The notes below the pieces were generated by a model. That model saw nothing but the letters and a program-made list of their open reading frames with translations, had not been told where the DNA came from and did no database searches. Positions 15,917-59,828 of a stretch of 64,000 nt of DNA are shown one piece after another. Numbering within the stretch: position 1 is the stretch's first letter; each line of letters opens with the position of its first letter. The translations under genes were made by a program, and so were the position numbers. Origin of the DNA: Candidatus Eiseniibacteriota bacterium (GTDB lineage Bacteria; Orphanbacterota; Orphanbacteria; Orphanbacterales; Orphanbacteraceae); the NCBI GenBank assembly GCA_029262235.1, contig JAJCZU010000002.1:496001-560000 (forward strand), in the 5' to 3' direction.

Positions 15917-17173
15917 ATGGACGCATTTCGTATTGAGGGCGGCGTACGACTGAAGGGCACCGTTTCGATCTCCGGATCGAAGAACGCGGTGCTTCCGATG
16001 CTGTGCGCCACGCTGCTGGCGCCGGGTGAGTATACGCTTACGAACGTGCCCGTCCTGCGTGACGTGACGACCCTTTCGTCGCTGCTCCGGACGCTCGGTG
16101 TTCATGTCGTACGCGACGGGAGCACGCTGCGTATCGACTCGACGCGCGCGGTCCCGAACGAAGCACACTACGATCTCGTGCGCACGATGCGCGCTTCGGT
16201 TTACGTGCTCGGCCCGCTGCTCGGGCGATTCGGCCATGCGCGTGTTTCGCTTCCGGGCGGCTGCGCCTGGGGGCCACGTCCGATCGACCTCCACCTGCAC
16301 GCGATGGAGAAACTGGGCGCCCGCATCTCCCTGGACCACGGCGTGATCGTCGCGCGCGGAGCGCCCCTTCGCGGCAACGTGATCGATTTTCAGATTTCGT
16401 CAGTCGGCGCGACAGGAAACGCCGTCATGGCTGCGGTGCTTGCCGAGGGGACGACCACGATACGGAACGCCGCCCGGGAACCGGAGATCGCGGCACTCTG
16501 CGAGTTCCTCGTTGCCATGGGGGCCGGGATCACGGGCATCGGCACGCACGAACTTGCGATCGACGGCGTGCCTTCCCTTTCTCCGGTCGATGCGGCCGTC
16601 ATCCCCGACCGGATCGAAGCCGGGACGTATCTCGTTGCCGGCGCGATCACGCGCGGCGAAATCGAATTGCGCGATATTCGCGAAGACCAGATGCAATCCA
16701 CTGTGGAAGCGCTGCGGGCAACGGGGGCCGAACTCGAGTCCACCGAAGCCGGAATCCGAATTCGCGGCACCGGGGAAATCCGGCCAGTCACGGTTTCAAC
16801 CGAACCGTACCCCGGCTTCCCGACCGACATGCAGGCGCAGCTCATGAGCCTCCTTCTGCTGGCGCACGGCGATTCTACGATTCACGAGACGATCTACTCC
16901 GACCGCTTCAAGCATGTGCCGGAACTGACACGCATGGGAGGGCGCATTCGCGTAGAGGGCGGCGACGCCATGATTCAGGGTGTTCCCAATCTGACCGGCG
17001 CTCCTGTCATGGCGAGCGACCTGCGTGCGAGCGCGGCGCTCGTGCTGGCAGGCCTCGTGGCGGAAGGGACGACGGAAGTGCTGCGCGTGTATCACATCGA
17101 CAGGGGCTACGAGCGAATCGAAGAGAAGCTCGCCGGCCTCGGGGCCCGCATCTGGCGGGTCAGACAGTCATGA
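15917..17173 (+). CDS. murA: UDP-N-acetylglucosamine 1-carboxyvinyltransferase
   Basis: MurA transfers enolpyruvate from PEP to UDP-GlcNAc, the first committed step of peptidoglycan synthesis. The 418-residue protein has the SGSKNAVLPML start of the EPSP-synthase fold and the catalytic loop PGGCAWGPRPIDLHL with Cys116, the residue that fosfomycin attacks in sensitive bacteria. The region GFPTDMQAQ is also conserved. It starts 2 nt after prmC and overlaps selB by 4 nt. Confidence 0.95.
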   Translation: MDAFRIEGGVRLKGTVSISGSKNAVLPMLCATLLAPGEYTLTNVPVLRDVTTLSSLLRTLGVHVVRDGSTLRIDSTRAVPNEAHYDLVRTMRASVYVLGPLLGRFGHARVSLPGGCAWGPRPIDLHLHAMEKLGARISLDHGVIVARGAPLRGNVIDFQISSVGATGNAVMAAVLAEGTTTIRNAAREPEIAALCEFLVAMGAGITGIGTHELAIDGVPSLSPVDAAVIPDRIEAGTYLVAGAITRGEIELRDIREDQMQSTVEALRATGAELESTEAGIRIRGTGEIRPVTVSTEPYPGFPTDMQAQLMSLLLLAHGDSTIHETIYSDRFKHVPELTRMGGRIRVEGGDAMIQGVPNLTGAPVMASDLRASAALVLAGLVAEGTTEVLRVYHIDRGYERIEEKLAGLGARIWRVRQS

Positions 17174-19095
17174 TTCGCCGTGTCGTCGGAACCGCGGGTC
17201 ACATCGATCACGGGAAGACGACCCTCGTTCACGCGCTGACCGGCATCGACACCGACCGCCTCAAAGAAGAAAAAGAACGCAAGATCAGCATCGATATCGG
17301 TTTCGCCCCGCTCACGCTTCCGAGTGGCGAACGCGTTGCCGTCATCGACGTGCCCGGGCACGAACGCTTCGTCAAGAACATGCTGGCGGGGGTGGGCGGT
17401 ATCGATGCCGTGCTCTTCACGATCGCGGCGGACGAAGGCGTCATGCCGCAGAGTCGCGAACACCTCGAAATCATTCATTTTCTGGGCGTAGACCGCGGGC
17501 TCATCGTTCTCACGAAGAAGGATCTCGTCGACGAGGAAATGCTCGAACTCGTGTCCGATGAAGTGCGCGAACTCTTCGCGTCGACCTCGCTCGCGCATGC
17601 GGAAATCGTGGCGGTTTCCTCCACGACCGGCGACGGCATCCCCGACGTTCTTGCCAAGCTCGATGCGCTGCTGCAGGAGCCGGTGCAGCGGCCCGAGCAC
17701 GCGTGGTTCCGCCTGCCGGTCGATCGCGTATTTGCGTCCCGCGGCTTCGGGACCGTGGTCACGGGGACCGTCTGGTCCGGCAGCGTCTCGGTCGGAGATC
17801 GTCTCTCGCTTCTTCCGTCGGGCAAAGAAGTACGGGTGCGAAAGGTCGAAGTGTTCCATGAAGAGGTCGAGTCGGCCGCCTCGTCGCAGCGGACCGCGCT
17901 CGCGCTTCACGGTGTCGACAGGGACGAAGTCGAACGCGGGGATGTTCTCGTTACGCCGCGCGTTCTGACCCCGACGCACATGATCGACGCCAGAATCCGC
18001 ATGAGCGCTTCTGCGGGCGAGCTGCGGCCACGCCAGCGTATCCGGTTTCATATCGGGGCGGCGGAGCTTCTCGGTCGCGTGATTCCTCTCGAGACGGAAA
18101 CGATTCAGCCCGGCGGGGAAGGACTCGTGCAGGTTCGCCTCGAACGTCCCGTAGTTGCCGCGAACCAGGACCGCCTGATCATTCGGTCGTATTCACCGGC
18201 CCGCACGATTGCCGGTGGCGTCGTGCTCGACGCGAACCCGCCGAAGCGAAAGTCCGGACGCGAGACAACCGCGACGTTTCTTACGATGATGGAGTCGGGC
18301 AGTCAGGCGAACCAGATCGCGGCCATTCTTACGCAGTCTTACGAGTCGTCGCAATCCGCGGCTTCGATCGCCGACCGTCTGCAGGAGTCCGAGCCGGTCG
18401 TGCGGGAAGAGCTGCAGGCGATGGAGCAGCGCGGCGAAGTCCTGGCGCTCGGCGGCGCCTGGATCGCGACGGCAACGGCGGACGCGATCCGCGGCGAGCT
18501 GCGCTCGTATCTCGAAGACGTGAAGAAGAAGGGAAATCGCGAGAGCGGGATCCCGCGCGAAGAGCTGCGTAAGAGCCTTTCGAAGGTCGTCGAACTGCCG
18601 CTGTTCAGCCGCCTGCTGCAGGAGCTCGTCGACGAGGAGATCTGCTCCGTGCACGAGGATCGCATTCTGACGGAGCGCGCGGGGCTCTCGCCCGCAATGG
18701 AACGCAGGGCGAAGGCGCTCGACGAACTGCTGGCTGAGCGGCGATTTCTGGCCCCCTCGCTGGACGAGATCGGGGCCGCGCTCGATCTGGCCGGAAAAGA
18801 ACGGTCGCAGGCGCTCGAACTTTTCGCGCGTCTCGGGCGCATCGTGAAAGTCACGCCGGAACTCGTGTATCGCCCCGCGGAACTCGAGGCGCTGCGCGGA
18901 ATCGTACGCGGCCTCGTCGTCGAAGGCGGTATGGACATCGGCGCGTTTCGCGACGCGAGCGGGCTGTCGCGCAAGTATTCGGTCCCCGTTCTCGAGTACT
19001 TCGACAGAACGGGCTGGACGAGGCGCAGCGGAAACGAACGAGTCGCCGGGCCGCAGATGGAACGCAGTCTCGAAGAGTCGAAGGGAGAGAGCTGA
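17170..19095 (+). CDS. selB: Selenocysteine-specific elongation factor SelB
   Basis: SelB carries Sec-tRNA(Sec) to UGA codons marked by a SECIS hairpin. The 641-residue protein has an EF-Tu-like GTPase (P-loop GHIDHGKT at 10-17, DVPGH from Asp60, TKKD at 115-118), two beta-barrel domains, and a C-terminal string of winged helices ending in [19 protein letters not shown], the typical SECIS-binding module. Oddity: switch I reads [11 protein letters not shown] where the usual form is RGIT/RGIS, so Lys38 replaces the Gly. The ATG overlaps the murA stop. selA, selC and selD are not visible in the window. A probable selenoprotein gene lies at 50694, about 32 kb away. Confidence 0.93.
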
Positions 19096-50604: not shown

Positions 50605-50693
50605 GATCAGGCGGCATAACTTGGGGTCCATCCAGACCCGCTCCGGATCCGTCCTGATCCGGTGCCGCAGGACCTGAATTCCGAGGGAGCGAA

Positions 50694-52127
50694 ATGCAAA
50701 AACTGAAGGTGACGGTGGCCCTCGCCGGACTCTTCGCCCTGGCTCTGACCGGCTGCAGCGGTCTCGGGCTTTTCGGGCCGAAGGGACCGCAGACGGTCAC
50801 CCTGATGTTCTCGAACGAGACCATCGGCGAACTGAAGCCCTGTGGCTGAAAATCCAAGGGCAAAGGCGGGCTGGCCCGGCGGGCTGGCGAGATCAATGCA
50901 AGACGCGCTCAGAATCCGGTCGTAGTACTCGACCTGGGGAACTTCGTTTCGCGTAAGAATCCTCCTTACGGGTACGACACTCCGATTCTGGCGCAATGTT
51001 ACGAGCAGATGGCGTACGACGCGGTTGCGATCGGCGAAAAGGAAGTCAGCCTCGGGCTGGCCGAAGTCGACTCGCTCCTTGCGGCGCACGGCCTTCTGGC
51101 TTTGAACAACAACATTCTGGACGCGACGACCGGGGAGCCTCGGTACACGCCGTACACGATTCTGAAAGCCGGTGAGCTGAAGATCGGTGTGACCTCGATG
51201 CTCGGTGGTGACGCGATCGTCGCGCGGTCGATCAAAGAGCGTGAAAACGTAGCCGTTTCGAACGGCGTGGCGGCCTCGCGCGAAGTCCTGGAGACGTTCC
51301 GCAAGAAGAAGGTCGATCTCAAGGTTCTGCTGGCCCACACGGGGCTGCAGAAAGGCGAGATGCTGGCGGATTCGCTTGCGGGCTTCGACGTGATCCTGAT
51401 CGGACACGGCAGCCGTTCTTGGACGGAGCCGAAGCAGGTAAACGGCGTCATTCTGGCCTCGCCGGGATCGCGCAGCAACCAGCTCGGGGAAGTCACGATC
51501 GTCGTGGAAGATCGCATGGTGCAGTCGTTCGAAGGACGTTCGTACCAGCTGCAGCAGGACGACGGACCGCTCGAACCGACCGTGAAAGCGCTGACCTGGA
51601 CGCATCTCGAACTCGACGAGAACGGGAATCGCGTGAAAGCCGGTGCGAAGACGGATTCGACGGAGGCGACCGAAACGTCGCTCGACCAGAGCAGCCTCGA
51701 TCCGAAACTCCAGAAGAACGAAGCGGCGAAAGCAGAGCCGGCAATGGCATATCTCGGAAACGAGAATTGCCGGCTTTGCCACGCCGACATCTTCGAGTCT
51801 TATGAGAAGAGCGCCCACGCGGAGGCGTTTCAGGTCATCGCCGAAGATCCGAAGGAGTGGCAGAATCCGGCTTGCTGGAACTGCCACACCCTCGGCTTCG
51901 GCGAGCCGACCGGCCACTCCACCACGGAACTGCAACCCGATCTCTGGAACGTGCAGTGCGAGTCGTGTCACGGCATGGGTACCGGGCATGCGCGCGGGGA
52001 GCTTACCGTGGCGATCACGGAAGCCACCTGCACGAAGTGCCATACCTCCGAATGGAGCCCCGACTTCGAATTCAAGAAATCCCTCGCTCTCATCTCTCAC
52101 AAATCGAATCACGCGAAATCGAACTGA
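50694..52127 (+). CDS. Probable selenoprotein: metallophosphatase-like tetraheme c-type cytochrome lipoprotein
   Basis: ATG 50694 has GAGGGAG ahead. The frame codes for a lipoprotein signal peptide (lipobox LALTGC, Cys21), then TVTLMFSNETIGELKPCG, then TGA at 50847-50849 (codon 52), then KSKGKGGLARRAGEI and an open frame to TGA 52125-52127: 477 residues with Sec52. The part up to about residue 310 resembles the 5'-nucleotidase/UshA-type metallophosphatase region (VVVLDLGNF, NNNILDATTGEP, VILIGHGSR). The C-terminal part has four CXXCH haem sites at Cys359, 394, 422 and 446. Homologues known to me have Cys-Gly-Cys at the UGA place. NCBI uses the name multiheme c-type cytochrome (seleno)protein ExtKL for a Geobacter protein of this kind, from memory. 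Alternatives: a nonsense mutation or sequencing error. It lies between lptD and a sirtuin gene. Confidence 0.8.
50850..50890 (+). promoter_or_regulatory. Candidate bacterial SECIS hairpin just after the UGA codon
   Basis: CGGG (50867-50870) and CCCG (50875-50878) close a CTGG loop 21 nt after the UGA; an alternative fold pairs GGGC (50858-50861) with GCCC (50874-50877) and CCA (50854-50856) with TGG (50885-50887). Distance and position suit SelB recognition, but the stem is short and the folds compete, so the structure is tentative. Confidence 0.45.
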
Positions 52128-59306: not shown

Positions 59307-59828
59307 TTGACTGCCATGAAGATAAAAATCGCACTCTTCGTTCTTGCAGCCGCACTCTCGTTCGGCTGCGGGAAGTCCGACGAAGAGGCGACTAAGAACG
59401 ATACGAACTCGAGCGCCCTCTCCGCGCCGGAATTCATCGTAACGTCGTACACAGGTGAAGAAACGTTTTCGCTCGACGGTTACAAGGGGAAGGTATTGAT
59501 CCTCGACTTCTGGGCGACATGGTGCGGCCCGTGTAAACGGGAGATCCCGCACTTCAACGAGCTTTACGCGAAGTATCAGGACAAGGGCCTCGAAATCCTC
59601 GGCGTCTCGCTCGACGAGCAGGGGCCGGGCGCTGTGGAGCGCTTCGTCTCCTCGATTCCGATCGACTACGGAAACGCCATGGCGAACCGCGAAGTGGTAA
59701 CGGCGTACGGGCCGATCAGCGCGATTCCGACGACGTTCGTGATCGACCGCAAGGGTCGCGTGCAGCGGCGCTTCGTGGGGTATCAGGATGTGAGCGTCTT
59801 CGAAGAAGTTCTGCAGCAGCTTCTCTAG
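59307..59828 (+). CDS. TlpA-like thioredoxin lipoprotein
   Basis: The 173-residue protein has a lipoprotein signal (lipobox LSFGC, Cys21), a short Asp/Ser-rich linker and a thioredoxin fold with the active site WCGPC (Cys73 and Cys76), GVSLDEQG and the cis-proline segment AIPTTFVIDRKG. It should act as a membrane-bound periplasmic disulfide reductase, for example in cytochrome c maturation or oxidative repair. TTG 59307 is supported by AAAGGAG with 7-nt spacing; ATG 59316 is the alternative. Such a reductase would suit haem attachment in the selenocysteine cytochrome, but this is only a guess from the window. Confidence 0.85.
   Translation: MTAMKIKIALFVLAAALSFGCGKSDEEATKNDTNSSALSAPEFIVTSYTGEETFSLDGYKGKVLILDFWATWCGPCKREIPHFNELYAKYQDKGLEILGVSLDEQGPGAVERFVSSIPIDYGNAMANREVVTAYGPISAIPTTFVIDRKGRVQRRFVGYQDVSVFEEVLQQLL

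Follow-up and report, generated by a model that had tools for sequence, protein, structure and literature searches.

A selenoprotein entered as 'COG0737, UshA-like, CxU' was reported in 2008 from Global Ocean Sampling data (PMC2398784). The UshA-like family is also found in a 2026 catalogue (PMC13188914). UshA-like family 2 (NF049981) has a CxxU motif instead (PMC13188914). The Geobacter protein ExtKL (NF040886) belongs to the multihaem c-type cytochromes and is predicted to contain selenocysteine (Sec) (PMC5877670). The gene analysed here lies in a 64,000-nucleotide stretch of DNA from a Candidatus Eiseniibacteriota bacterium, the whole of which is called the window. Its product is a divergent member of the already described, functionally uncharacterised UshA-like PCGU selenoprotein family, not a new one. 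UshA-like selenoproteins are thereby placed in a little-studied lineage.

Gene layout and family assignment

The gene starts with the ATG at 50694 and ends with a TGA stop at 52125-52127 on the forward strand (Table 1). Its translation comprises 477 residues, Sec52 counted. The sole in-frame TGA is codon 52, located in the peptide ELKPCG-TGA-KSKGKGGLARR. After it, the reading frame stays open for 425 sense codons up to the terminal stop. A preliminary description had named a ribosome binding site with ATG, a lipobox, a Cys-Gly-TGA triplet with an uninterrupted continuation and four CXXCH motifs, all of which were recovered. The promoter named there is unconfirmed, since a simple consensus scan yielded no sigma-70-like site for this gene. 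As also stated there, a plain ORF list shows only the piece 51009..52127 of this gene. Automatic annotation would cut the gene to the 51009 start and lose the signal peptide. Cys21 of the lipobox would be the lipidated residue, and the protein is probably located in the cell envelope as a lipoprotein.

Table 1. Features of the selenoprotein gene and the selB gene (window positions)
Feature	Positions	Strand	Basis
selB, Sec-specific elongation factor	17170..19095	+	TIGR00475 match G000:C2:513182-515044, 370 bits
Shine-Dalgarno-like GAGGGAG, 4 nt before ATG	50683..50689	+	sequence
Whole selenoprotein gene, UshA-like and tetrahaem c554-like domains	50694..52127	+	translation, profile match
Lipobox LTGC, residues 18-21	50745..50756	+	translation
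UshA/5'-nucleotidase-fold domain, residues 32-285, dimetal ligands largely replaced	50787..51548	+	AlphaFold, Foldseek, alignment
Cys-Gly-Sec motif, TGT GGC TGA	50841..50849	+	sequence, homologue alignment
In-frame TGA, codon 52, very likely read as Sec	50847..50849	+	conservation, Cys homologues
fdhF-type SECIS register of distant members; here 3-bp stem only, loop GGGCUG	50862..50879	+	pairing comparison
Candidate SECIS hairpin, 8 bp, GGC loop at 50878-50880, 28 nt after TGA	50870..50888	+	constraint, folding, pairing
Haem site 1, CRLCH	51768..51782	+	sequence
Haem site 2, CWNCH	51873..51887	+	sequence
Haem site 3, CESCH	51957..51971	+	sequence
Haem site 4, CTKCH	52029..52043	+	sequence

Among the profiles, NF041198, named 'UshA-like (seleno)protein', gives the window protein its best match, with E = 1.3e-68 across both domains. 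The segment G000:C2:547678-548076 matches positions 380-519 of this profile, its C-terminal haem half (E = 6.8e-26). The score of 231.8 bits is below the curated cut-off of 275 bits, and the protein is therefore filed as a divergent branch, not as an equivalog. Scores of 208.7-249.3 bits were obtained for four other members of clade A, which comprises the window gene and its orthologues. Clade B, the second paralogue in the phylum, scores 289.3 and 275.3 bits; identity between clade A and these members above the cut-off is 29-31%. Across the genomes searched, members over the cut-off occur in 32 of 386, both with and without TGA.

Like the members of NF041198, the window protein combines a UshA-like domain with a C554-type haem domain and carries P-C-G-U followed by GGxAR. 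Sec or Cys occupies the same column, with PCGU in the window and its relatives and PCGC in Cys homologues. The window clade differs in its scores of 209-249 bits and in having its probable SECIS hairpin in another register. NF049981 matches weakly over the first ~90 residues (E = 3.1e-11), scoring 43 bits where its cut-off asks for 140, and the window protein has CxU in place of CxxU. The preliminary description had named ExtKL as a possible relative, and as the alternative had considered a new selenoprotein group. ExtKL membership was rejected: the NF040886 profile gave no meaningful match (E = 0.015, 13.9 bits against a cut-off of 250), and in none of the phylum's seven genomes did a protein pass its cut-off. 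With the 2008 report and the 2026 catalogue, the idea of a new group falls as well.

Fold, metal site and proposed role

AlphaFold modelled residues 32-285 mostly with pLDDT above 90. Confidence was low for the haem domain and for residues 47-56, which form the Cys-Gly-Sec loop. Foldseek matched the model to 5'-nucleotidases (2ush, E = 3.4e-20). The SoxB profile gave E = 1.3e-16, and Pfam Cytochrome_C554 matched with E = 1.5e-13. The fold and the GG-x-AR region are shared with the 5'-nucleotidase/UshA and SoxB metallophosphoesterases. In contrast to these, the window protein has largely lost the dimetal ligands, has gained a C-G-U motif and carries a haem domain behind its phosphoesterase-like part.

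Metal ligands were compared between PCG(U/C) members and six canonical metallophosphoesterases that are their paralogues in the same genomes, with columns set by motif and positions given in what we take to be E. coli UshA numbering. The window protein shows the replacements D41E, H43I, D84N, N116E, H117K and H254S, and lacks the complete set of dimetal ligands and catalytic His of a 5'-nucleotidase or metallophosphoesterase. All PCG(U/C) members examined have ligand replacements; in the six canonical paralogues every ligand is intact and the PCG motif is absent. The C-G-U motif thus directly follows a defunct metal-binding motif. The preliminary description had ascribed Cys-Gly-Cys to metallophosphatase-like relatives. 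This is wrong for true metallophosphatases, as the metal-binding paralogues are devoid of the motif; Cys-Gly-Cys occurs in Cys forms with a degenerate metal site. The loss of the two-metal phosphoesterase site goes beyond the cited sources (PMC2398784, PMC13188914) and renders annotation of the family by fold misleading. One family relative, L085, still has HTNDTH as its first metal motif, contains GCGC and has lost the later ligands, a possible intermediate between a phosphoesterase and the PCG(U/C) forms.

Since the PCG(U/C) members examined have lost the two-metal site, the UshA-like domain is probably a redox module. Nucleotide hydrolysis by the window protein would not be expected. With the c554-like tetrahaem domain and the lipobox also considered, a role as periplasmic thiol/selenol oxidoreductase connected to c-type cytochromes is the most plausible one, proposed tentatively at slightly below even chances. 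A phosphoesterase-fold domain without its two-metal site would carry the Cys-Gly-Sec couple, followed by the tetrahaem c554-like domain. The C-G-U centre may exchange electrons with a small substrate or a protein disulfide, and the fused haems would tie this centre to the cytochrome pool. The window protein makes such a Sec-haem electron-transfer function testable.

Alternatively, the same selenoprotein could be a residual phosphoesterase, or a chaperone for a substrate or metal; Sec and Cys would then serve to bind a metal or a selenide/thiolate ligand, and the haems would have a separate role. The 5'-nucleotidase fold is kept, clade A and several further members retain equivalents of His217 and His252, and Sec members without haems exist, all in favour of this view. 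The equivalents of H43, N116, H117 and H254 are replaced in the window protein and close clades, and Sec in bacterial selenoproteins is mostly redox-active, which makes it unlikely, though a serious competitor to the oxidoreductase role. UshA-like has, however, been listed among the exceptions, as no redox motif is known for it (PMC2398784).

Decoding of codon 52 and the downstream hairpins

TGA is present at codon 52 in 7/7 clade A genomes of the phylum and at the matching codon in 7/7 clade B genomes, far more than chance would produce. Distant Cys homologues, by comparison, have TGT or TGC exactly in this column. A Cys codon in homologues at the position of an in-frame TGA is the classical signature of Sec. 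Codon-level constraint was observed on both sides of the TGA, and changes near it are mostly at third positions, in the closest as well as in more distant orthologues.

The genome encodes a tRNA-Sec with a UCA (TCA) anticodon (70.7 bits), SelA (538 bits) and SelD (348.7 bits, with its own in-frame TGA). The SelB noted in the window by the preliminary description is real, and selB was detected in all seven genomes of the phylum. Two marks of a bacterial selenoprotein are present, a UGA aligned with Cys in homologues and tRNA-Sec, SelA, SelB and SelD in the genome. Partial SelB-profile matches (G000:C4:48883-50052 and similar), some with in-frame TAA or TAG, are probably EF-Tu genes read past their ends. 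The selD gene L104 (G000:C3:455857-456780) is a selenoprotein gene itself, with TCGUAAK and a strong hairpin with GGTCT after the TGA. Its Sec context was read from a six-frame translation, which is noisy and was used for that context only. A second selD match (L108) is without in-frame TGA.

Sec incorporation at codon 52 is very likely on these grounds. A hairpin shortly after the UGA would recruit SelB with Sec-tRNA(UCA), and selenocysteine would be inserted at the UGA. The central proposal of the preliminary description, Sec at codon 52 of a haem lipoprotein, has strong support: the codon is conserved, Cys homologues exist, the constraint is SECIS-like and the Sec machinery is complete. That the TGA encodes Sec and that the protein belongs to the UshA-like PCGU family are jointly held with high confidence.

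Termination at this UGA would leave a short lipopeptide and/or a second protein from 51009, in a decayed gene. In favour, the gene itself ends in TGA, and an ATG at 51009 opens the downstream ORF. Against this, the codons between the TGA and 51009 are under amino-acid constraint, the NF041198 profile runs through the site and the TGA is conserved across genera, not decaying; a real stop is very improbable. A sequencing or assembly error, with TGC or TGT as true codon and Cys in the protein, would take a single base; related Cys forms exist and the relatives are metagenome assemblies. The same TGA recurs in independent assemblies of seven species, in both paralogous clades and also beyond the phylum, which makes an error highly implausible, and the downstream synonymous constraint would be left unexplained. 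UGA is reassigned in some bacterial lineages, and reading as Trp, Gly or Cys via a variant code or suppressor tRNA is equally far-fetched here, as TGA also ends the gene, homologues have Cys and not Trp or Gly at the site, and a full Sec system with a UCA tRNA-Sec is encoded.

Codon usage provides the best support for an RNA signal downstream of the TGA read as Sec. In clade A, codons +7 to +14 after the TGA rank first of 332 windows for synonymous constraint across the whole gene (111/120 codon pairs identical vs 42.9 expected). In clade B, with 235 windows, the three most constrained ones fall in the same place. The candidate hairpin lies within this peak. A CGG-CGG Arg pair is invariant in this stretch, and CGG accounts for only 22% of the Arg codons in ten genes of the window.

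The bSECIS model describes a loop of 3-9 nt with G in the first two positions, a stem of 4-16 bp, a spacing of 16-37 nt and an MFE of at most -7.5 (PMC13188914). With 8 bp, a GGC loop, 28 nt and -13.5 kcal/mol when folded alone, the candidate hairpin is within all of these limits (model: PMC13188914). Across 17 sequences, of which two come from other phyla, its stem at 24-31/35-42 (the T of TGA being position 1) is 94.9% paired. An equally long stem conforming to the model follows 1.3% of all TGA in the window. An A-R-R-A peptide in GC-rich codons favours such a hairpin by itself. In longer contexts, the candidate segments were no more stable than shuffles, a comparison that is uninformative in so GC-rich a stretch. 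Rfam SECIS families had no match in the window or in other family members; only the E. coli fdhF control was matched.

Eleven Sec members from genomes outside the phylum share another hairpin, 16-21/28-33 with loop 22-27 (same count), which is 97% paired. Three of its pairs have changes on both sides, and sliding the partner reduces pairing to 53% or less. Ten of the eleven have a GGUCU loop, in the register of E. coli fdhF (GGTCT at 22-26). In the phylum of the window, this fdhF-register hairpin is only 52.9% paired. It was therefore rejected as SECIS of the window clade, and the second hairpin is preferred. The UshA-like gene family thus appears to use two SECIS registers, an fdhF-type (18 nt, GGUCU loop) and a second one (28 nt, GGC loop), and the SECIS of the window gene may have shifted its register in this lineage. 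Two apparent registers in one gene family would offer a natural case of a recoding signal relocating under coding constraint. A composite scenario is offered as a speculative, rather doubtful proposal. A metallophosphoesterase fold would have lost its metals, gained a Cys-Gly-Sec loop where the active site had been and so become a Sec-dependent oxidoreductase, with fused c-type haems as electron relay, and the SECIS would have moved from the fdhF register to the second hairpin.

Paralogues and gene neighbourhoods

Genomes of the phylum contain two Sec paralogues, and some contain three. Clade B consists of L009 (G000:C4:1190332-1191669) and the orthologues L021-L026, one per genome. L026 has a PVGU motif, with Val for Cys and Sec without a Cys partner. 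A third Sec paralogue without haem motif occurs in two genomes (L045, L046), and L078, L082 and L091 are further Sec members without haems. Neither the haems nor the Cys partner are indispensable, as judged from these haem-less members and the Val of L026. Fusion of the UshA-like domain to a c554-like haem domain is frequent in the family. The family tree contains several Sec/Cys changes with weak deep support, so no direction of change is claimed.

The window gene is flanked by lptD and sir2, and this order is conserved in the orthologues. It is uninformative as to function, and no redox partner was revealed among the genomic neighbours of the gene. Most other family members are located among genes of unrelated function. 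A small lipoprotein-like TlpA/AhpC-TSA thioredoxin-fold protein with CGPCK is encoded ~7 kb downstream in the window (59307-59828). In L099:7324-9245, a TlpA/AhpC-TSA-like thioredoxin gene overlaps the start of a tetrahaem UshA-like member by 4 nt. Its product could be a redox partner of that family member, and the overlap gives a hint of a redox role. In another genome, two Sec members are arranged in tandem (L094:8227-11268), and their surroundings are similar to those of the one copy in L093.
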